From positions 30,063 to 94,062 of the forward strand of contig CAMNIN010000008.1 of the NCBI GenBank assembly GCA_946540735.1: a DNA stretch of 64,000 nucleotides. Reading direction: 5' to 3'. Both the position numbers and the translations under genes were made by a program. Every line of letters starts with the position of its first letter. Positions within the stretch are counted from its first letter, which is position 1. This document shows positions 3,498-22,566 of this stretch, piece after piece. The stretch is from an uncultured Prevotellaceae bacterium. Its GTDB lineage: Bacteria > Bacteroidota > Bacteroidia > Bacteroidales > Bacteroidaceae. Below the pieces are notes generated by a model, which was not told the DNA's origin, searched no databases, and was given only the letters and a program-made list of their open reading frames with translations.

Positions 3498-6400
3498 ATG
3501 ATGAAAAAACTATTTACATCAATCCTGATGCTGAGCGTGGCTCTCTGCAGCTGGGGTGTCTCTGTCAAAAGTTTTTCTGGCGGAGTTCTTACCCTTGAAT
3601 CTAATGGTGTCAGCTTCAGCAATTTCGTCGGTTCTCAAGACGATCTTTCGAATTCAACTTGGAAAGGCCAAGTGAATAGGCTCGTACTTATTGGGGATGA
3701 CTTCACTAATGCTGACTTCAATGGCGGCAAGATGGGTGAATTCATCCAAAAATGCGCCGGTACCGACGCCGGTACCTACAAAACCCTCTATCTTGATCTG
3801 ACCAATGCATCTGGACTTGTTTCTCAGGTGACATATACCTCTACAGACAAAAATCCTGTCGCAAATCCTCAGTATGTTTATTCTACTGAGAAGGAGAGAA
3901 AAGATCTCATTAAAAAGGAATCATACTATCTGCCAGATGGGAATCCTGTTCCATCGTATGCTATTGACCAAAATATGCTTAAAACTGACGGCAATGGGAA
4001 TTGGTGGTTAGAGGGTTATCAAGGACAATCCCATGTAGATGTTACTGCAATAACAGAATATGGTTATTACAGTGAATATTGGAATTATCCCGATAATCCA
4101 AACCCAAATTCTTGGGTTGCCGTAAATAACCCTCAAACAGATGATAACGGACAGACATATTATGCTGAAATAGCCAAGGATGGCACTCCTTTCGCCTTCG
4201 GTATCATTGATCAAAATGGCAAAGTTCAGCAGAATTACTGTGGACAATACATTAATGGTATTACCTTCCCCAAAGGCGATAATTTTACCGCTATTCCCGA
4301 CAAACTGTGCTGTACAGCTTTGTGCCCAAAGCTGGAAACTGTCGTTTGGGGCGACCAACTTGAATGGATTGGTGCGGATGCTTTCAGAGGTGGTGTAAAA
4401 GGATATGATGGCGATGATAGTCATTATTCTCCCGCTTCCGAACTGAAGAATATCGGCACCATGAATGCCCAAGGAACCGTTACCTTCCCTACAATCCAAT
4501 TGCCTAATGAAGGAGGGACGTTGACGGATGTAAACCAAGGTGTGGTGAAATTCCCGAGCACCCTTAAAGTCATCGGAATGGACGCTTTCTATGAGTGCAC
4601 CGATTTCAGATATGTAAACCTCGACCTCGACGAACTCGTGAAGGTGGACGCAGCTGCTTTCAATATGAGACTAGACGATCAAAACCATCTTGACTCCGTC
4701 CAAATGCCAAGCAAGACCAATACGTCTCTGAAGTTCTGGGGCAACCAGGTGTTCTCCTCTTCCCACGTCAAGACACTCGACTTCAGATATTGCGAAGGCA
4801 TCAAACATTTTGCTTACGATGGAACTTCATCCATGGGTGAGATGGATCATAATCCAATCACTGGTGGCGTGGGAACCAATACATTCTACTGGCATCCATA
4901 TCTTACCAAACTTGTTCTTCCTCCAAATCTGGAATATCTCGCTGGTGGTACTTCTACTGCCAGTATTGTACATGAATGTAAGAATCTTGAGACTGTTGAG
5001 TTCACAGGAAGAGGTGTATACGGCGATAACTGCAATCTGACAAATGGTCTTATAATTCCGGATTATGCTTTTGCATTTTCCACTAATGAAAGCGACCCGA
5101 ACGGAGCATGTAATATTACGGTAACAAATCAGAACGGAGGATCATCGACGTTAAGAAAATTGAAAAATGTTATTCTTTCTGACAGAATTTCCCAGATAAA
5201 TGAATATGCTTTCAATAAGACTTATATTGAAACTATTCATATTCCGGCTTCTGTAAGTCGCATTAAGCAGCACGCATTTAACGAATGCCGCAATTTGAAG
5301 GTTGTTGTGTTCGACGATGTCCAAACACCTAATACTTGTTCAGCACAAACCGTGGTTGAAGGTGGCTCTGGTAGTGGCGCATTCTACAACTGCGCAGGCA
5401 TTACCGATGTGTATGTCAATAATTTGACAGAGGAATTGATATGTGATAACTATGCTTTCGATTATGGTGTCACATGGGGACACGCCAATCCAGGAGCTCC
5501 TTTCGCAACCCTTCATTTCCCGAAGGATTTCATCGACCACTATGTCAACCTTAAGCACCCTCTCACCGATCAAATTGCTAGCGATCCGGCAAAATTCCAC
5601 CTGTGGTTGCACAAGCATATCCAACTTGCTGGTGTGCCTCATAAGAATGGATGGTATGAGTTTATCAATGCTGGCCCTGTGAGCACTACTATTGAGGAAG
5701 AGCCTGTTTATAATCAGGGTATTGTCCTCCGCACGTTCAGTGACTATTTCTATTCATATCTTGTGCCTGATGGTCTGAGAGCATACGTGGTGAACGGTAT
5801 TGAAAAGAACGGTGACAATTATGAGGTTTCGCTCCAACGCATTCTGGTTATCCCCGCCAAGACGGGTGTGATTCTTTACGGTCATCCTAACAGCAAGAAC
5901 CTGAACGGTGAGCCTATTCTGTCGATGACACCGATAGAGTTTGCTGAAGAAGGTGATAAGCTTGATGATGGATCAACCGCAGGTTACGACCATGGACAGC
6001 CACTTTGCCGTGCTAACTGGGATCCTGACAATGCAAATCAAATCAAGAACTTTCTCGAACCGACATCCACTCCTACGGCAGCTGATGTTGTGAGAATCAC
6101 AGCCAGGATTGCTAAGCTCCAAGCTCAATATGACCAGGAAACAGATGAGACAAAAAAGAATCAGATTAAGGACGACTTGGATGATGAACGTGCTTTGTTG
6201 ACTGAGGTTACAACACTTATTCAGCAGCATGCTAACGACTGGAAGAATGGCGGAAAGTACCTCAAGCCTTTTGAAAATAAGGTAAATGATGATCCCATGG
6301 TGGTTAATACTTCCACAGGTAATGATGATGTTGGTTTCCGTAACTTTACTCTTGGTCGCTATAATGGCACTCTGCACCTGCACAACAAAAATAAATTGGA

Positions 6401-6950
6401 AGATGATGACAAACAAGACTATGCCGCATTCTTCCGTGTAGATCCAGGATTCTTCAGCACAGGTAAGGCCTACTTGCGTCTCTCTGATACTGAGTATCAT
6501 CAGCCAACCGGAGCGGAAATTCTTGTAAAAGAAGACAAGGGTGCTGTGCCTTACTATTATGAATATGATAAGAACTCTAACGAGGGTGCTACAATTAACT
6601 ACAGATCTGATGAATATCGTACTGAGGCTAAAAATCCCAAGCACTGGTGGGATGACCAATGGGGATTTGACTGGGGAATTACCGACAAGTACTTTACCTA
6701 CACTGTAGGTGGAGAGCAACGTACGGTATCACGTATGAACTGGGGCGTTCGTCCTATCACTTTGCCTTCCAACCCACAATTAGGTGCTCTTCAGTATCTT
6801 GGAGAGGTCGGCGGAGATGTAGACGGTATAATGAAAGTTGTGATTCCTGCCACCGCCGTTGACGACTATTATACCCTGCAAGGCGTGAAAGTGAAGAATC
6901 CTGGTAAGGGAGTTTATATCCGCGATGGCAAGAAGGTAATCATCAAATAA
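3498..6950 (+). CDS. BspA-like leucine-rich repeat (LRR_5) surface protein
   Basis: Signal peptide MMKKLFTSILMLSVALCSWG; repeated LRR_5-type segments; C-terminal YYTLQGVKVKNPGKGVYIRDGKKVIIK typical of Prevotella/Bacteroides secreted proteins. Paralogous to 19651-22566. Confidence 0.87.
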   Translation: MMKKLFTSILMLSVALCSWGVSVKSFSGGVLTLESNGVSFSNFVGSQDDLSNSTWKGQVNRLVLIGDDFTNADFNGGKMGEFIQKCAGTDAGTYKTLYLDLTNASGLVSQVTYTSTDKNPVANPQYVYSTEKERKDLIKKESYYLPDGNPVPSYAIDQNMLKTDGNGNWWLEGYQGQSHVDVTAITEYGYYSEYWNYPDNPNPNSWVAVNNPQTDDNGQTYYAEIAKDGTPFAFGIIDQNGKVQQNYCGQYINGITFPKGDNFTAIPDKLCCTALCPKLETVVWGDQLEWIGADAFRGGVKGYDGDDSHYSPASELKNIGTMNAQGTVTFPTIQLPNEGGTLTDVNQGVVKFPSTLKVIGMDAFYECTDFRYVNLDLDELVKVDAAAFNMRLDDQNHLDSVQMPSKTNTSLKFWGNQVFSSSHVKTLDFRYCEGIKHFAYDGTSSMGEMDHNPITGGVGTNTFYWHPYLTKLVLPPNLEYLAGGTSTASIVHECKNLETVEFTGRGVYGDNCNLTNGLIIPDYAFAFSTNESDPNGACNITVTNQNGGSSTLRKLKNVILSDRISQINEYAFNKTYIETIHIPASVSRIKQHAFNECRNLKVVVFDDVQTPNTCSAQTVVEGGSGSGAFYNCAGITDVYVNNLTEELICDNYAFDYGVTWGHANPGAPFATLHFPKDFIDHYVNLKHPLTDQIASDPAKFHLWLHKHIQLAGVPHKNGWYEFINAGPVSTTIEEEPVYNQGIVLRTFSDYFYSYLVPDGLRAYVVNGIEKNGDNYEVSLQRILVIPAKTGVILYGHPNSKNLNGEPILSMTPIEFAEEGDKLDDGSTAGYDHGQPLCRANWDPDNANQIKNFLEPTSTPTAADVVRITARIAKLQAQYDQETDETKKNQIKDDLDDERALLTEVTTLIQQHANDWKNGGKYLKPFENKVNDDPMVVNTSTGNDDVGFRNFTLGRYNGTLHLHNKNKLEDDDKQDYAAFFRVDPGFFSTGKAYLRLSDTEYHQPTGAEILVKEDKGAVPYYYEYDKNSNEGATINYRSDEYRTEAKNPKHWWDDQWGFDWGITDKYFTYTVGGEQRTVSRMNWGVRPITLPSNPQLGALQYLGEVGGDVDGIMKVVIPATAVDDYYTLQGVKVKNPGKGVYIRDGKKVIIK

Positions 6951-6972: not shown

Positions 6973-7152
6973 ATGAAAAGAATTTATCAAGTACCAGAGA
7001 TTGATATCGTTTTTTCTTCATCAAGATATTCCATCATGGATCCTAGTGGAGGAGAGAACAACGATGACAATACGTTGTCGAATGAGAGCAAGTCTTTTGA
7101 AGAAGGCGAACTCTCCACAGATATGTCCAAGTCAGGTCTCTGGGATGATTAA
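6973..7152 (+). CDS. 59-aa small protein MKRIYQVPEIDIVFSSSRYSIMDPSGGENNDDNTLSNESKSFEEGELSTDMSKSGLWDD
   Basis: ORF missing from the supplied track (below length cutoff); same length, ends and synteny as the small ORF at 19451-19630. Confidence 0.8.
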   Translation: MKRIYQVPEIDIVFSSSRYSIMDPSGGENNDDNTLSNESKSFEEGELSTDMSKSGLWDD

Positions 7153-7201
7153 ACTGTCCATCAAGGACTAAGGATATCCGTGATATCCACAAAGAATGAA
7201 G

Positions 7202-7241
7202 AAAGCCTATAGGCAGGAGTCTATAGGCTTTTCTTCTTTTT
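7202..7241 (+). terminator. Intrinsic terminator between small ORF and DUF285 gene
   Basis: AAGCCTATAG-gcaggagt-CTATAGGCTT followed by TTCTTCTTTTT. Confidence 0.75.
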
Positions 7242-7257
7242 AAGAATACTATTTACT

Positions 7258-8934
7258 TTGAAATATAAAGCAATGAGAAAGACTCTTTTCCTCATCTTTT
7301 TTGTTTTCACATCTTTCTGTTTACAAGCAGCCAACATGTATTGTGTTCTTTCCGGCAGCACATTGACGTTTTATTATGATGATGAGATTTCAGCGCGAAC
7401 GGGGACGAAATATGACTTGGTTTACAGTAACGGTTATCCAAAATGGAACGGAAAGGCTTCGTCGGTGAAAAATGTGGTCTTTGACTCTTCATTCGCCAAT
7501 GCACGTCCGACTGATGGTTCTTTTTGGTTTCACAACATGACTAACTTGACTAGCATCAATGGGATGTCTTTCCTTAACACTTCTGAGATGACCACAATGG
7601 CTGGCATGTTTTACTCCTGTACAAGTCTGGCAACTATCGACCTCAGCCATTTTGACACGAGAAATGTGGAAGATATGGCGGCAATGTTCCAAAATTGCTT
7701 GAAAGTCACACAACTTAACGTGGGAGAATTCGAAACAGGAAAAGTTGTTCGAATGAACAGCATGTTCAGAAATTGCGTGAATTTGACCACAGTGGATGTA
7801 GAAGATTGGAATGTGTCGGCAGTGGGAAACATGAACTCCATGTTTCACAGTTGCATCAACCTTATATCGATTGATGTAAGCAAATGGCAAACAAGTGCTT
7901 TGGTCAATATCGGATATATTTTCTACCGTTGTCTTAAATTACAGGAGATAGATGCTTCGGGGTGGGATGTGTCAAAGGTGACAAATAGTCACTATGCATT
8001 CTACTATTGTGAACATGCAAAGACTATAGATGTAAGCAATTGGTCCACTAGTCATTTTGTTGATACTTCCTATATGTTTTACAGTTGCAATAGTCTGACA
8101 TCTCTGGATTTAAGCCAATGGGATATGTCTTCGGTTGTTACAGCGGAGAAGATGTTCCCTTATTGCTCTAATCTTGCATCTTTGGACATCAGTGGTTGGC
8201 AAACAGACAATCTGACTAACTTATCAGAGATGTTTAATGGATGTTCCAATTTGAAAACACTCGATGTGAGCAAATTCAAAACTTCCCGAGTAAGCACAAT
8301 GGCTTCTCTTTTCAATGGTTGTTCAAGCCTTGAGATCCTGGATGTCAGCGATTGGGATGTATCCCATGTCTCTAATATGGGATATATGTTCAATAATTGT
8401 AGTAGTCTGAAGTCTATTGATGTCAGCAAATGGAATACTTGGAATGTTACAAGCATGATGAATCTATTCAGCAATTGCTCTTCCTTGGAAAAACTTGATT
8501 TAAGCCAATGGGACACCAAAAAGGTGGATTATAGTCACAACATGCTGCTAAACTGTACTGGTCTCTCAAAAATAAGCGTTTCCCCCACAATGGAGAAACT
8601 TAATTCCTCTGCCTGCTCTGGCGTAGGCACCGCCGAGAACCCCTGTCTGCTCGTAGCACCCGACGGATTTGACTTCGGAGAGGATGTTGACCCGTATACC
8701 CCGCCGTTCCTCTGGTGCAAGGGTTATTTCACCCTTGGCATCACGGGCAGGATGGGCGACGTGAACGTCGACGGCAAAATCAACGTGACCGACATCATGC
8801 TCACCGTGGGCTATATCCTGGGCCAGGAGAATCCTGCCTTCCACATCCAGTACGCCGACATGAACAGCGATGAGAACATCACCGTCACCGACGTGATGCG
8901 GATCGTGAACATCATCTTATCGATTGAAAATTGA
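7258..8934 (+). CDS. DUF285-type BspA-family LRR surface protein with C-terminal dockerin-like module
   Basis: Signal peptide (likely start M at 7273); ~22-aa repeats of type MFxxCxxLxxIDVSxWxTSxVxxM; tail GDVNVDGKINVTDIMLTVGYIL...DMNSDENITVTDVMRIVNIIL shows two Ca-binding dockerin-like loops. Confidence 0.87.
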   Translation: MKYKAMRKTLFLIFFVFTSFCLQAANMYCVLSGSTLTFYYDDEISARTGTKYDLVYSNGYPKWNGKASSVKNVVFDSSFANARPTDGSFWFHNMTNLTSINGMSFLNTSEMTTMAGMFYSCTSLATIDLSHFDTRNVEDMAAMFQNCLKVTQLNVGEFETGKVVRMNSMFRNCVNLTTVDVEDWNVSAVGNMNSMFHSCINLISIDVSKWQTSALVNIGYIFYRCLKLQEIDASGWDVSKVTNSHYAFYYCEHAKTIDVSNWSTSHFVDTSYMFYSCNSLTSLDLSQWDMSSVVTAEKMFPYCSNLASLDISGWQTDNLTNLSEMFNGCSNLKTLDVSKFKTSRVSTMASLFNGCSSLEILDVSDWDVSHVSNMGYMFNNCSSLKSIDVSKWNTWNVTSMMNLFSNCSSLEKLDLSQWDTKKVDYSHNMLLNCTGLSKISVSPTMEKLNSSACSGVGTAENPCLLVAPDGFDFGEDVDPYTPPFLWCKGYFTLGITGRMGDVNVDGKINVTDIMLTVGYILGQENPAFHIQYADMNSDENITVTDVMRIVNIILSIEN

Positions 8935-13164: not shown

Positions 13165-14274
13165 GTAGAGACGTCACATTGGGGCGTCTCCTGCCATATA
13201 GGATATAAAGAGCGAGCTGGCCGAGAATGAACAAGCAGGGACATGATTCCTGCTTGTTTCATTCAATTCCCTCGATGTCTTCCGCCGTCAAGCCAGTAGC
13301 CTGGGCGATCAGATCCACGCCCATGCCCATGCTCTTCATCTTTCGGGCAATATCCATTTTCTCCTCAGCACGGCCTTCTACCAATCCTTCCGCACGGCCC
13401 TCTTCCCGGCCTTTGCGCTCGGCTGTGTTGACGACGTTGAAGAGGTCGCGGTACACCTTCACACTTTCCTCGTAGTCAAGCAACTCCTGCGGATTGAGCT
13501 TGGCGATCTCAGCCTGTTCAAAGAGCCGGGTGAAAATCCTTTCCTGCAACGCCTTCGGACGCTCCATCAGCCGGGTGAGATTGCGCAGGGCGAAGAGCCA
13601 CTTATCGAACATGGTCTCCAGTTCCTCCTCCGTCTTGCGAAACTTCGGCATCTCCAGATACACAAACGTGAGCTTGTCGTAGAAGACGTGCCTGTCGACC
13701 GTGTCCATCAGCTTGATCTCATGGTGCATGCAGTCGTCCGGGTATTCGTCGTCGGGGAACACGAAGTTGAGGATGCCCACAGTATAGACTCCCTTGAGCT
13801 GGTAGTCCCACTCGCCCCGCTTCGCCTGTTCGCGGATGGGGAACGTGGAGTAGTAGACGCTGCGGTCTTTGAAATAGTCCTGCTCGGCCTTCTGCATCTC
13901 GACGATGAAATACTCGCCCTCGGTGTTCTGGCAGTAGACGTCAAAGACGGCCTTGCGGTCGGTCACGCCGCTGCCCAGCTGCTCACAGTTCTTATAAGTG
14001 ATGTCGGTGATCACCTCATGACCGGAGAAAAGGGCGTTGAGGAAACTGATGAGCAGATCCTTGTTCATCTCGGTGCCGAAGAGCCGCTTGAAACCGAAAT
14101 CGGTGTAGGGGTTGATGTATCTCTCTCTGCTGTCGACCATGGTCACATGATTTTTCTGCGAAGATAGGTGATTTCCCGGTGATTTGCAAATAATTCGGCG
14201 GTATTTTTGAGAAAAAAACCTCCCCCAGCCTCTCCGTGAGAGGGGATGACTTCGCTAATACAGTTGATGAAAAT
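13165..14274. repeat. Tandem duplication unit 1 carrying Rpn gene
   Basis: Near-identical to the next ~1.1 kb; unit starts at a GTAGAGACGTCAC palindromic repeat. Confidence 0.85.
13259..14146 (-). CDS. Rpn family recombination-promoting nuclease / PD-(D/E)XK putative transposase, copy 1
   Basis: RYINPYTDFGFKRLFGTEMNKDLLISFLNALF...RKAVFDVYCQNTEGEYFIVEMQ is the Rpn/PDDEXK_2 signature. Confidence 0.92.
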   Translation of the reverse strand: MTMVDSRERYINPYTDFGFKRLFGTEMNKDLLISFLNALFSGHEVITDITYKNCEQLGSGVTDRKAVFDVYCQNTEGEYFIVEMQKAEQDYFKDRSVYYSTFPIREQAKRGEWDYQLKGVYTVGILNFVFPDDEYPDDCMHHEIKLMDTVDRHVFYDKLTFVYLEMPKFRKTEEELETMFDKWLFALRNLTRLMERPKALQERIFTRLFEQAEIAKLNPQELLDYEESVKVYRDLFNVVNTAERKGREEGRAEGLVEGRAEEKMDIARKMKSMGMGVDLIAQATGLTAEDIEGIE

Positions 14275-15361
14275 GTAGAGACGTCACATTGGGGCGTCTC
14301 CTGACATAGGGGGTATAAAGAGTTGAGCTGGCCGTGAATGAACAAGCAGGGACATGATTCCTGCTTGTTTCATTCGATTCCCCCAATGTCTTCCGCCGTC
14401 AAACCAGTAGCCTGGGCGATCAGATCCACGTCCATGCCCATGTTCTTCATCTTGCGGGCAATATCCATTTTCTCCTCTGCCCGGCCTTCTTCCCGACCTT
14501 TGCGCTCGGCTGTGTTGACGACGTTGAAGAGGTCGCGGTAGACCTTCACGCTTTCCTCGTAGTCAAGCAACTCCTGCGGATTGAGCTTGGCGATCTCCGC
14601 CTGTTCGAAGAGCCGGGTGAAAATCCTTTCCTGCAACGCCTTCGGACGCTCCATCAGCCGGGTGAGATTGCGCAGGGCGAAGAGCCACTTATCGAACATG
14701 GTCTCCAGTTCCTCCTCCGTCTTGCGAAACTTCGGCATCTCCAGATACACAAACGTGAGCTTGTCGTAGAAGACGTGCCTGTCGACCGTGTCCATCAGCT
14801 TGATCTCATGGTGCATGCAGTCGTCCGGGTATTCGTCGTCGGGGAACACGAAGTTGAGGATGCCCACAGTATAGACTCCCTTGAGCTGGTAGTCCCACTC
14901 GCCCCGCTTCGCCTGTTCGCGGATGGGGAACGTGGAGTAGTAGACGCTGCGGTCTTTGAAATAGTCCTGCTCGGCCTTCTGCATCTCGACGATGAAATAC
15001 TCGCCCTCGGTGTTCTGGCAGTAGACGTCAAAGACGGCCTTGCGGTCGGTCACGCCGCTGCCCAGCTGCTCACAGTTCTTATAAGTGATGTCGGTGATCA
15101 CCTCATGACCGGAGAAAAGGGCGTTGAGGAAACTGATGAGCAGATCCTTGTTCATCTCGGTGCCGAAGAGCCGCTTGAAACCGAAATCGGTGTAGGGGTT
15201 GATGTATCTCTCTCTGCTGTCGACCATGGTCACATGATTTTTCTGCGAAGATAGGTGATTTCCCGGTGATTTGCAAATAATTCGGCGGTATTTTTGAGAA
15301 AAAAACCTCCCCCAGCCTCTCCGTGAGAGGGGATGACTTCGCTAATACAGTTGACGAAAAT
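14275..15361. repeat. Tandem duplication unit 2 carrying Rpn gene
   Basis: Near-identical to 13165-14274, shorter mainly through a 24-nt in-frame difference in the GRAEG repeat region. Confidence 0.85.
14370..15233 (-). CDS. Rpn family recombination-promoting nuclease / PD-(D/E)XK putative transposase, copy 2
   Basis: Almost identical to the 13259 gene; lacks GLVEGRAE. Confidence 0.92.
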   Translation of the reverse strand: MTMVDSRERYINPYTDFGFKRLFGTEMNKDLLISFLNALFSGHEVITDITYKNCEQLGSGVTDRKAVFDVYCQNTEGEYFIVEMQKAEQDYFKDRSVYYSTFPIREQAKRGEWDYQLKGVYTVGILNFVFPDDEYPDDCMHHEIKLMDTVDRHVFYDKLTFVYLEMPKFRKTEEELETMFDKWLFALRNLTRLMERPKALQERIFTRLFEQAEIAKLNPQELLDYEESVKVYRDLFNVVNTAERKGREEGRAEEKMDIARKMKNMGMDVDLIAQATGLTAEDIGGIE

Positions 15362-17566: not shown

Positions 17567-19306
17567 TCAATTTTCAATCTCTAAGATGATGTTCACAATC
17601 CGCATCACGTCGGTGACGGTGATGTTCTCGTCGTTGTTCAGGTCGGCGAACTGGATGTGGAAGGCAGGATTCTCCTGGCCCAGGATATAGCCCACGGTGA
17701 GCATGATGTCGGTCACGTTGATTTTGCCGTCGACGTTCACGTCGCCCATCCTGCCGGTGATGCCGAGGGTGAAGTAGCCGCTGCACCAGAGGAACGGCGG
17801 GGTATACGGGTCGACATCCTCTCCGAAGTCAAATCCGTCGGGTGCTACGAGCAAGCAGGGTTTCTCGGCGGTGCCCACGCCTGGGCAGGCCTTTATGTCA
17901 AGTAACTCCATCGACCTCCCGACGGAAAGTTGTGTCAAGCTGGAGCAGTTTTGGAGCATATAATGGCTATAAGTCACAGCATTCATATTGAAATGGCTGA
18001 GGTCGAGCGACGTTAGTCCTGTGCAATCACTCATCATATACATCACATCTGTTACTCGCCACGTGTTCCATTTTGTCATGTCAAGGGATGTAAGACCCTT
18101 GCAGCCATTGAACATATAGCCCATGTCGGTGACGTGAGACACGTCCCATTTACTTACATCAATGGTGGTGAGTTGACTACAGTTGTTGAACATGCCGTAC
18201 ATGCTACCAACTCCTGAAACGTCCCAGTCGCTTACATTAAGGTCTGTGAGGCTCCTACACCCACTGAACATGCTGGTCATATCTGTCATTGAGTTAGTTT
18301 TCCACGTCTTCACGTCGAGTGTCCTGACTTTGTAGCAGTTGGAAAACATCGCTTTGGCGTTAGTCACGGCAGACACGTCCCATCCGCTCACATCAAGTTC
18401 GGTTACAGATCGGCAATCCGCAAACATGTTGGTGGTGCTGGTGAACAAGTCAGTTTTCCAATTACTCACGTCAAGAGACCTGACGCTGCGGCAGTTGTTG
18501 AAAGCATCATTGGCCACGCTGATATGTGACGTTTCCCAGTTGCTCACATCAATAGTTGGAAGACTGGTGCACGACCAGAACATATAGCCAATGTTCACTA
18601 AGGTGTTGGTCCTCCATTTGCTCACATCAATAGAGGCAAGTAGCTTGCAGTTGTAGAACATCATTGACATCGTGCCGACTTGCGAGACATCCCACTGGCT
18701 CACATCCACCGTGGTGAGGGCACTGCATCCAAAGAACATGCCTGTGAGATACTGCACCTTGCCAGTATTGAAATTACCGATGGCGGCATTTTCGAGACCT
18801 GTGCAGAGATAAAACATATAGGACATGTCATCCACATTGCTGGTGTCGAAATGGTTGAGATTGATAGAGGTAATCCCGGTACAGTTGTAGAACATGCCCC
18901 TCATGGTGACTGCCTTGCTGGTGTTGAGATGGCTGACATCGATATCGGTGAGCAGTTTGCATTTGCTGAACATGTAGGCCATCGAGTCCATCTCCGAAGT
19001 GTTGAAATGGCCCATGCCTGTGATGGAGGTGAGCTTGGTCATGCTGTCAAACCAGTAGTTGCCGTTTGTCGGTCTTGCTTCAGCGAAAGAGGAATCAAAG
19101 ACCACTTTTCTCACCGAAGAAGCCTTAGCGTGCCACTTGGGATACTCATCCGTTCGGTCAAGAGAGTATTTGGTACCAGTGTGTGACGCTTGACTGTCGT
19201 CACAATAGAAGGTGAGTGTGCCATTGGATAACACGGCATATGGAGTGCCTGCATGTGCGCCAAGAAAGACGGTGAGCAAGATTGTCAAAAGTATGTTTTT
19301 GTACAT
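17567..19306 (-). CDS. DUF285-type BspA-family LRR surface protein with C-terminal dockerin-like module (paralogue of 7258)
   Basis: MYKNILLTILLTVFLGAHAG signal peptide; tandem MFxxCxxLxxIDVSxWxTS repeats; tail nearly identical to the 7258 gene. Confidence 0.87.
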   Translation of the reverse strand: MYKNILLTILLTVFLGAHAGTPYAVLSNGTLTFYCDDSQASHTGTKYSLDRTDEYPKWHAKASSVRKVVFDSSFAEARPTNGNYWFDSMTKLTSITGMGHFNTSEMDSMAYMFSKCKLLTDIDVSHLNTSKAVTMRGMFYNCTGITSINLNHFDTSNVDDMSYMFYLCTGLENAAIGNFNTGKVQYLTGMFFGCSALTTVDVSQWDVSQVGTMSMMFYNCKLLASIDVSKWRTNTLVNIGYMFWSCTSLPTIDVSNWETSHISVANDAFNNCRSVRSLDVSNWKTDLFTSTTNMFADCRSVTELDVSGWDVSAVTNAKAMFSNCYKVRTLDVKTWKTNSMTDMTSMFSGCRSLTDLNVSDWDVSGVGSMYGMFNNCSQLTTIDVSKWDVSHVTDMGYMFNGCKGLTSLDMTKWNTWRVTDVMYMMSDCTGLTSLDLSHFNMNAVTYSHYMLQNCSSLTQLSVGRSMELLDIKACPGVGTAEKPCLLVAPDGFDFGEDVDPYTPPFLWCSGYFTLGITGRMGDVNVDGKINVTDIMLTVGYILGQENPAFHIQFADLNNDENITVTDVMRIVNIILEIEN

Positions 19307-19450: not shown

Positions 19451-19630
19451 TTAGTCATCCCAGAGACTGGTTGGGGTTTCCGTGACAGGTTCATTCTCAT
19501 CGAACAACTTGTTTTCGTTGCCCATAGGGGTTACCTCTCCATTATTGTCCGATGGTCCCTCAACGATGGTCTGGCAGAACTTCTCAGTGAAGACCACCTC
19601 CACCTCTGGTGCTTGATACATCTTTTTCAT
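19451..19630 (-). CDS. 59-aa small protein MKKMYQAPEVEVVFTEKFCQTIVEGPSDNNGEVTPMGNENKLFDENEPVTETPTSLWDD
   Basis: Read by hand on the minus strand; same length, N-terminal MKxxYQxPE and C-terminal LWDD as 6973-7152, same neighbours. Confidence 0.8.
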   Translation of the reverse strand: MKKMYQAPEVEVVFTEKFCQTIVEGPSDNNGEVTPMGNENKLFDENEPVTETPTSLWDD

Positions 19631-19650: not shown

Positions 19651-22566
19651 TTATTTGATGATCACTTTCTTTCCGTTCTGGATGTAGATGCCCTTTGTGG
19701 GGTTGGTCACCTTCATACCAGAGAGGCTGAAGATATCATCCACTTTGTTCTCAGGAACCACAAGTTTCACGATACCATCGGTATCCTCAAGTTCGCCAAG
19801 ATAGCTGATAGCACCCGGTGTGTTGAACTTGTCAGCGCGGGTTCCCCATCCGTCGGCCATGTTGTTCCAAGTATTGGGATTATCCCACCATCCATGGACG
19901 CCGCCACGGGGATCATAAAGGTCGCCTGATGACTTATACTCCTTGTAATAGTCAGGATCTTCCTTCACGATGCACTCTGCGCCTTGGGCGGCATCAAACT
20001 CACTGGCAGAGAGATGAAGATAGGCATAGCCCTCAGTGTAGGTACCAGGAAGGATGCGGAAGAATCCGGCATAGTTCTCGACAGCGGCATCGAATTCGAA
20101 CTTCTTATGCAGGTTGGTGGTTTCAGACATTCGGCTAAGACCGAAGTTACGCCATTTCACAGGGCTGCTCTTATAAGGCTCATAAGGATAGACAGTCAGC
20201 AGGTTAGTCGTTTTGAAAGTCTGATTACCACCCTCTTCCACGGTGCGGATGCTGGCTTTCTCAATAATCGGCATGAGATAGTTCTTGAACTCATCCTGGT
20301 CGTTCTCGGAAAGCATATCCCAGTAGTCGCGGCGCAGAGGCTGTCCCTGTCCGGGAGCGAAGGCTGTGGTAGACATACTGACAACATACTTGCCATCAGC
20401 GGTCTTGGAGTTGGGCTGTCCGAAGAGGATCACACCGGTCTGAGCGGGAATCACGAGGAGGCGCTTGAGGGTCAGCTCATAGTTGGTGCCTTTTTTCTCT
20501 ACTTTGTTGACGATGTATGCACGGAGTCCGTCGGGCACGATATGTGCGTAGTCAGCATCGCTGTAGGTGCGGAGGATCAGCGGGAGCTCATCAGGATCCT
20601 CGGTCTCGTAAGTGGGATCGGGATCTTTGGGGTCAGTGCTGGTGGCTCCGGTGTTGACGAACTCATACCAGCCATAGCCGGATTCATGGTTCTGTGCATT
20701 CTGGTAGTGTTCGGTCAGCCATTTCTGGAACAATCCCGGGTCTCCTGCAATCTCGTTGGTCAGATAGTGGTCGAGGTTGGTGTAGTGTCTCTCATGTCCC
20801 TCGGGGAAGTGGAGGGTAGCTCCTTTTCGGTCAGGATTACCTTGAGAGAACGTGATGTTGTGGTCGAAAGCCCAGTTCTCACACATGATATCAGTCGTGG
20901 TATTCACGTAAACATCGGTAAGGACGGTCTGGTGGTTGAATGCCTCGGTCTTGACGACGGTGGCGGCATGGTTGCAGTCAGGATATTTGGTCTTGTCAAT
21001 CTCCTCGAAGACCACTTTCTGGATGGTGCCGGGGTCAGAGCAGGCGAAGGCCTGTTTTCCAACTTCCTCGATAGAAGCGGGCAGCACAACTTCTGTCAGC
21101 TGGGCATCCATGAATGCCTGCTCACCAATCTTGGTCACATTGTTGGAGAATGTGACGGATTTCAAATTTGAATATAACGAACCATTTACAGGATCAATCT
21201 TGAATGCTTTCTCGCCGATGGTCAGCGGGTTGGTGAGATTGCAGTCATCATCGTAAACGGCCTCGCCGGTGAAGATGGCCTCCTCGAGGGCATAGCAATT
21301 GAAGAAGCACTCGTCACCTACATGGCGCAGGTTTGGAGGCAGGGTGATCTTTTTCAGGTCAACAAGCCAGGTGAAGGTGCGGTTGGTGTTGGAGATGCCA
21401 TCGGGCACGGTCTCGCCGAAGTGCGCCTCACCATCGTATGCGAAGTGATCAATACCATAGAAATAGCCGAAGTCGAGTTCTGTGATATGGGAAGAGGCGA
21501 ACACCTGATTGGCGAAGAATTTCAGCGTATTGTTTTTGCCATCGGCTTCACGTAAAGGAAGATAGACGGTATTGAGGCTGTTATTTTTCACATTATCCAT
21601 GTTGAATGCAGCAGCGTCCACCTTGACGAGGTCGCGGATGCGCAGGTCTACCACGGTGAATTTTTGGCATCCGTGGAATGCATCAAGTCCAATCACCTTT
21701 ACTGTCTGCGGGAAGGTAACATTGTTCAATTTGTTGCAACCTTTGAAGGCTTTGTTGCCAACCCACTCCAGCTCGTCACCGAATGTCACATTCTCCAAAG
21801 CAGTAAAGCCCTCGCAGATTCCCGCAGGAATAGCGGTGAACGTGGAATTATTGGGGAATGAAAGGCCGTTAATCTTTTCCATGAATTTGTCAAGATTGAA
21901 GGGCGTAGTGTCAGGAGTATAGGTGTAGCTATAGGAATAGGTGTTGTTACCATTGTCTGTCACAGTAGCGTTGCTGGGAAGCTCCTTGCCATTCTCGTCG
22001 AGATAAACAGAGGAAACAACAAGTTTGTTCCAAGAAGCGACTCCTCCATTGCCATCATCAGCATAAAAGTCATCACCGACCTGATGAACAGTTCCTGTGT
22101 ATTCACCGCCCCAGGAATTTTCGTATTTTGTAGACCCTGTTGCAGTACCCGTCACAGTCACCTGTTCAGGATTGTTGGGGTCTGGCAGATAGATGAAATT
22201 GGTGCTTGTCCAGTCGGTATTACCCTCACCAGTGTACTTGACATAGGACATCATCTTGTCGCAACCGCTCAGGTCGAGGTAGACCTTCTTTTCTTCTGTG
22301 ACGCATATTTCAAAAATTTTGTCAACCGCCTTGCCTGCTTCCAGGTCTTTGTTGGACCAGTCGCCATCGAGCACAATCTTCGTTGCCTCACGCATGTTAG
22401 TCGTGATTAGCTCATTCCAGTTCTGATTCTGGTCATTGGCATTACCATCATCCTCATACCTGACAGTGAGGGTTTTTGTACCCGAATCATAATTAGCTGT
22501 GTAGGAAGCCCATCCACATAGGGCCACCCCCAGCAATAATAGTGATGTAAATAGTTTTTTCATCAT
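19651..22566 (-). CDS. BspA-like leucine-rich repeat (LRR_5) surface protein (paralogue of 3498)
   Basis: MMKKLFTSLLLLGVALCGWA; VKVDAAAFNM, FANQVFASSHITELDF, LTIGEKAF; C-terminal FSLSGMKVTNPTKGIYIQNGKKVIIK. Confidence 0.87.
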   Translation of the reverse strand: MMKKLFTSLLLLGVALCGWASYTANYDSGTKTLTVRYEDDGNANDQNQNWNELITTNMREATKIVLDGDWSNKDLEAGKAVDKIFEICVTEEKKVYLDLSGCDKMMSYVKYTGEGNTDWTSTNFIYLPDPNNPEQVTVTGTATGSTKYENSWGGEYTGTVHQVGDDFYADDGNGGVASWNKLVVSSVYLDENGKELPSNATVTDNGNNTYSYSYTYTPDTTPFNLDKFMEKINGLSFPNNSTFTAIPAGICEGFTALENVTFGDELEWVGNKAFKGCNKLNNVTFPQTVKVIGLDAFHGCQKFTVVDLRIRDLVKVDAAAFNMDNVKNNSLNTVYLPLREADGKNNTLKFFANQVFASSHITELDFGYFYGIDHFAYDGEAHFGETVPDGISNTNRTFTWLVDLKKITLPPNLRHVGDECFFNCYALEEAIFTGEAVYDDDCNLTNPLTIGEKAFKIDPVNGSLYSNLKSVTFSNNVTKIGEQAFMDAQLTEVVLPASIEEVGKQAFACSDPGTIQKVVFEEIDKTKYPDCNHAATVVKTEAFNHQTVLTDVYVNTTTDIMCENWAFDHNITFSQGNPDRKGATLHFPEGHERHYTNLDHYLTNEIAGDPGLFQKWLTEHYQNAQNHESGYGWYEFVNTGATSTDPKDPDPTYETEDPDELPLILRTYSDADYAHIVPDGLRAYIVNKVEKKGTNYELTLKRLLVIPAQTGVILFGQPNSKTADGKYVVSMSTTAFAPGQGQPLRRDYWDMLSENDQDEFKNYLMPIIEKASIRTVEEGGNQTFKTTNLLTVYPYEPYKSSPVKWRNFGLSRMSETTNLHKKFEFDAAVENYAGFFRILPGTYTEGYAYLHLSASEFDAAQGAECIVKEDPDYYKEYKSSGDLYDPRGGVHGWWDNPNTWNNMADGWGTRADKFNTPGAISYLGELEDTDGIVKLVVPENKVDDIFSLSGMKVTNPTKGIYIQNGKKVIIK

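Follow-up and report, generated by a model that had tools for sequence, protein, structure and literature searches.

Small acidic YxxP peptides encoded behind T9SS cargo genes in Prevotella-type bacteria, and a candidate kinase–peptidase–RRE operon for their modification

The window analyzed here, a stretch of 64,000 nucleotides from an uncultured Prevotellaceae bacterium (assembly GCA_946540735.1, contig CAMNIN010000008.1, positions 30,063 to 94,062), carries two small open reading frames (ORFs) of exactly 59 aa each, at 6973–7152 on the plus strand (copy 1; MKRIYQVPEIDIVF...SGLWDD) and at 19451–19630 on the minus strand (copy 2; MKKMYQAPEVEVVF...TSLWDD), as a preliminary description of this DNA had reported. 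Each follows a gene for a secreted LRR_5 protein, namely a BspA-type protein of 1150 aa upstream of copy 1 (3498–6950, plus strand) and a protein of 971 aa upstream of copy 2 (19651–22566, minus strand), both of which carry a short T9SS C-terminal signal (YYTLQGVKVKNPGKGVYIRDGKKVIIK and IFSLSGMKVTNPTKGIYIQNGKKVIIK, respectively). The distance from the LRR_5 stop to the small ORF measures 22 nt for copy 1 and 20 nt for copy 2, in agreement with the roughly 20 nt given earlier, and inspection by eye likewise revealed no signal peptide in either small protein. At both loci the small ORF precedes a DUF285/dockerin gene (7273–8934, plus strand; 17567–19306, minus strand), again as described. In copy 1, a terminator-like hairpin with a 14-pair stem and a T-rich tail (7201–7232, plus strand) directly follows the small ORF. 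Since this hairpin stands between the two genes, transcription of the DUF285 gene is probably separate, at least in copy 1, and the gene probably lies outside the LRR–peptide unit; the same scan found no terminator on the coding strand of copy 2.

The two small proteins are approximately 40% identical by alignment. Querying with either 59-mer recovered the other copy (E ~4e-7), and the twin was the sole own-genome match of the one 59-mer searched. The two loci lie in opposite orientation, and their LRR proteins are 34% identical and their DUF285/dockerin proteins 56%. The LRR_5–small protein–DUF285/dockerin unit is a diverged duplication, with the copies inverted relative to each other. Over their last ~100 residues the DUF285/dockerin proteins hardly differ, compared with 56% identity overall, hinting at gene conversion or a strong constraint on the tail. 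Elsewhere in the window (13259–15276), ORF lengths recur with a period of ~1.09 kb, which suggests a tandem duplication; ORFs of 159, 78, and 62 aa, for example, each occur twice.

Neither 59-aa ORF matched Pfam or NCBIfam, even at an E-value of 5, and a single-sequence scan of a collection of genome contigs found no relative. The back-translated pattern MKKxYxxP, in turn, gave 12 matches in the own genome and none in the reversed control, and the pattern is therefore beyond chance; 11 of the 12 matches encode peptides of 43–76 aa, mostly acidic and with a C-terminal Trp. Enrichment over control was also observed in related genomes. Matches to MKKRY[LF]xPS were removed, as they look like an antisense reading of a conserved gene. 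Among close pairs, dN/dS was mostly 0.07–0.35; a single pair was higher (0.54), and another, of very recent origin, was uninformative. On the basis of these values and of the strong terminator-like hairpin after copy 1, the 59-aa ORFs are established as real genes, and they are established members of a wide family of 43–86 aa acidic proteins in presumably Prevotella-type bacteria. The suspicion in the preliminary description that these ORFs form a genuine gene family, with ends under constraint and a core that varies, is thus borne out by motif enrichment and by purifying selection in relatives, the latter having been proposed there as a check.

The anatomy of the peptides was derived from 89 non-redundant cargo-linked members, picked irrespective of the scored features; YxxP doubles as the search motif, and the Ser was not used in selection. 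Counting from the Tyr of this motif, positions Y+5, Y+7/8, and Y+10 are mostly hydrophobic, and Y+16 is hydrophobic in 82 of the 89 members. A Ser is found at Y+19 or Y+20 in 60 of the 89, compared with 14.3 ± 3.4 in shuffled sequences (maximum 27 in 2000 shuffles), and 66 have a Trp among their 10 C-terminal residues (shuffles, 20 ± 3.7). The part past the Ser varies in sequence and is acidic and rich in Gly, and the mean peptide charge is −6.9. The family plan accordingly reads MKKxYxxP, alternating hydrophobic residues, a hydrophobic residue and then a Ser ~19–20 residues after the Tyr, a variable acidic core, and a C-terminal Trp. In copy 1 the Ser is Ser25 (Y+20) and in copy 2 Ser27 (Y+22), both in a common I[MV][DE](G)PS; the layout is otherwise the same, with a candidate leader of residues 1 to ~22, an acidic core, and a C-terminal LWDD. 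We infer that the first ~22 residues constitute a RiPP-type leader. An AlphaFold model, built from two sequences only, was uninformative (mean pLDDT 61).

Upstream of the family members, the cargo gene product ends in [YF]xLxGxxVxxPxKG[IV]YIxNGKKxIxK. The LRR proteins of the window carry the C-terminal signal GxxhxxxxKG[IV]YI...K reaching the protein end, and are predicted T9SS cargo on this basis. The own genome contains 21 genes with a KGhYIxxGKK tail, 10 of which are followed by a family member at −4 to ~+90 nt, and it encodes SprA (2563 bits, 2570-aa frame). In loci fetched from many genomes, at least 96 of 130 distinct candidate ORFs, as counted with a strict regular expression, lie directly behind a gene with such a C-terminal signal (CTD), most of the remaining ORFs being contig-edge, chance, or near-miss cases. 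Across 151 family genomes, the mean number of MKKxYxxP matches per genome was 4.1 (control 0.55) in the 111 that are SprA-positive and 1.8 (control 1.05) in the 40 that are SprA-negative. We regard the pairing of T9SS cargo with a small peptide as near certain, and in most members the peptide is probably co-transcribed with the cargo gene. In the open-access literature searched, we found no account of small peptides dedicated to, and encoded behind, roughly half of the short-CTD cargo genes in a genome.

These surveys also bear on the earlier proposal that the small proteins serve the LRR/DUF285 locus, for which homologues unlinked to LRR genes had been named as the refuting observation. The upstream partners proved to be varied, including LRR_5 proteins, C10 proteases, several proteins without a Pfam domain, and others, and because most homologues follow non-LRR genes, the LRR link falls. 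What the upstream proteins actually have in common is their T9SS C-terminal signal. Among the roles suggested for the LRR locus (secretion partner, regulator, or precursor-like peptide), the precursor-like one is best supported once detached from that locus.

Three RRE (PqqD) loci were identified in the own genome (G000). At ~64.5–66.3 kb of its contig C5, genes for an HprK-like kinase, an SpI-like (archaeal-type signal) peptidase, and an RRE of 95 aa lie in a row. Of 29 loci fetched from relatives, 26 contain this HprK–SpI–RRE operon in complete form (in L244 the RRE is split over two frames) and three in partial form, L223 and L236 having no detected RRE and L241 being cut by the contig end; of 20 additional SpI loci, most of them weaker matches from other genera, about half also contain it. 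The RRE profile matched structurally characterized lasso RREs (TfuB1, E 2.4e-5; TbiB1, E 0.045), and by our reading of the alignment an invariant Asp occupies the place of D70 in LppB, the RRE of the linear polyphosphorylated peptides (LPPs) discussed below. The SpI retains Ser59, His97, and Asp112, the counterparts of the catalytic residues of LppS. The kinase possesses a P-loop and weak matches to HprK-related kinase A, and its assignment as HprK from these sequence features is weak. No precursor gene lies beside the C5 operon, nor beside the other HprK–SpI–RRE operons examined, apart from a separate convergent cargo–peptide unit in G129.

Elsewhere in the own genome, an HprK-like ATPase, a radical SAM protein, PqqD, and NTP_transf_5 are encoded in a row on the minus strand at ~118.7–122.6 kb of contig C1 (L042:7729–11576), adjoining capsule-export-like genes. 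An SpI–RRE fusion whose N-terminus resembles that of a lipoprotein lies, with an ATP-grasp gene nearby, at 95.5–98.5 kb of contig C5 (L044:9507–12440) and at L274:2256–3026. Close to the own-genome fusion, a pair of 43-aa YxxP peptides that barely differ from each other is encoded in opposite orientations, and a related fusion with a peptide is found in G073. In the SprA-negative genus g53, an ABC transporter-like gene, SpI, an HprK-like gene, and an RRE lie together (L256:1268–4633; L258:591–4239, with a second RRE in L258), which by sequence would represent an LPP-like cluster outside Bacillota. In G018 (L272:5619–10170), a T9SS cargo–peptide unit adjoins genes for a radical SAM protein, an RRE, and what may be a PP-loop protein whose C-terminus resembles an RRE.

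We propose that the stand-alone lasso/LPP-type RRE (PqqD family) would bind the leader YxxP and present the peptide to the HprK-like kinase, which would act on the conserved Ser, and would also hand it to the archaeal-type signal-peptidase-like leader peptidase; the freed acidic core may then act together with the secreted protein made from the same unit, or in parallel to it. Whether the family peptides are indeed dispersed, cargo-coupled substrates of the HprK–SpI–RRE operon is, on the present sequence comparisons, an evenly poised question. The wider proposal for T9SS-bearing Bacteroidaceae, that one central kinase–peptidase–RRE operon modifies many scattered precursors, each co-expressed with its own T9SS surface protein, and so couples secretion output to a matching modified peptide, we hold tentatively, as falling somewhat short of an even chance. 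In support of the enzyme link, nearly every genus with a clear peptide excess has SpI. In G126, moreover, the operon is present and SprA was undetected, and YxxP...AAGS peptides lie 35–38 nt upstream of a lipoprotein gene each (L220:524–6339), an arrangement more readily explained by the enzyme link than by a link to T9SS. Physical proximity was also considered: the cargo–peptide unit of G129 lies 260 nt from the HprK–SpI–RRE operon, that of G018 adjoins the radical SAM–RRE pair, and the 43-aa peptides of G000 and G073 lie ~0.5–2 kb from the SpI–RRE fusion. Clustering was, however, rejected as proof of the enzyme link, since these 3–4 cases compare with about one expected by chance in a rough estimate, slightly above chance and just suggestive. 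Against the link, the operon also occurs in genera in which the peptide pattern does not rise above background (g46, g51, g53, and g65), and SpI was undetected in some peptide-rich drafts, namely G238 (20 matches, 86%-complete), G166, and G143. Against the LPP reading, the Ser at Y+19/20 departs from the Y+18 of LPPs and is not universal, copy 2 has it at Y+22, and YxxP is a short motif. Furthermore, peptides, operon, and T9SS all follow one clade, so that shared ancestry could yield their co-occurrence.

The main rival explanation, which we consider unlikely, is that of a cytosolic escort, in which the acidic peptide, made next to its cargo, would bind the basic tail of that cargo (GKKVIIK) or the preprotein before it folds, maintaining its competence for export until uptake by Sec. 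The tight placement of the peptide genes directly behind cargo genes and the opposite charges of peptide (mean −6.9) and cargo tail would agree with such a role, as would a weak within-genome correlation between peptide similarity and cargo-tail similarity (pooled permutation p 0.03), although a single genome, G181, accounts for most of this correlation. Escort would, however, leave the conserved YxxP and Ser pattern unexplained; about half of the short-CTD genes lack such a peptide, and in G126 the related peptides sit beside lipoprotein genes with SprA undetected. The position in the cargo operon and the cytosolic nature of the peptides could also reflect an unprocessed regulatory or feedback protein that senses blocked secretion or acts on cargo mRNA or translation. 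This is improbable, as no DNA- or RNA-binding family was matched and the peptides are highly acidic, and the low-confidence AlphaFold model, itself limited to two sequences, also counts against it.

A precursor role might also be served by another RRE-guided pathway, with the peptides being substrates of the radical SAM–RRE or SpI–RRE fusion loci and not of the HprK–SpI–RRE operon. The G018 unit beside a radical SAM–RRE pair, the peptides near the fusions of G000 and G073, and the radical SAM–RRE locus on C1 of the own genome are all in line with this alternative, but such loci were seen in few genomes, compared with an HprK–SpI–RRE operon present in nearly all of the relatives examined, and we assign it a low probability, on a par with that of the regulator. 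A partner specific to the LRR/DUF285 locus is highly improbable: both window copies do lie within LRR loci, but the LRR arrangement here represents one duplicated unit, and the neighborhood survey, with its mostly non-LRR cargo, contradicts it.

T9SS cargo of Prevotella-type bacteria includes surface adhesins and enzymes, and such bacteria are abundant in the gut and mouth. Should the peptides prove to be substrates of the HprK–SpI–RRE operon, a conserved orphan enzyme set would gain its substrates, LPP-type chemistry would reach Bacteroidota, and a RiPP system with scattered precursors tied to secretion would emerge.

Among known systems, the short CTDs of Prevotella intermedia function as T9SS signals, with their cleavage and glycosylation at the C-terminus demonstrated (PMC11969387). 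The upstream proteins described here similarly carry the Gly of motif B, the GxY-Ile of motif D, and the basic motif E, whereas the small proteins are not themselves T9SS cargo. A word search of that paper found neither "operon" nor "downstream", and the small partner genes therefore appear undescribed in it. Lasso peptides (paeninodin type and others) share with our family the [Y/W]xxPx[LIV] leader motif and a PqqD-type stand-alone RRE, and some of their clusters contain HprK-like kinases. They differ in that the cores described here show no fixed position for a ring Asp/Glu. At the three own-genome RRE loci, no lasso cyclase (Asn-synthase-like) or B2 peptidase was seen.

LPPs are a RiPP class of Bacillota described in 2026, with precursors of 35–200 aa that combine a conserved N-terminal YxxPxVLxHQxIxFETxxS with a variable C-terminus (PMC13381572). 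Their RRE, LppB, binds the leader Tyr and Pro, with D70 holding the Tyr; the leader Tyr is Tyr-16, the SpI-like LppS cuts after T-1, and the kinase LppK phosphorylates S3, corresponding to Y+18 (PMC13381572). Apart from the difference in phylum, the precursors described here are dispersed behind T9SS cargo and not contained within the gene cluster, and their Ser lies at Y+19/20, compared with Y+18. The full LPP consensus is not matched, as the family leader is without the HQxIxFET part and only the Tyr, the Pro, the hydrophobic positions, and the Ser are common. The own operon also lacks the NTP transferase and the MsbA-like transporter, although NTP_transf_5 is found at C1 and an ABC transporter-like gene in the g53 version. 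Shared with LPPs, in turn, are precursors with a YxxP leader, a Ser ~18–20 residues on, and a variable C-terminus, together with an SpI-like peptidase, a stand-alone RRE, and an HprK-like kinase encoded in one cluster.
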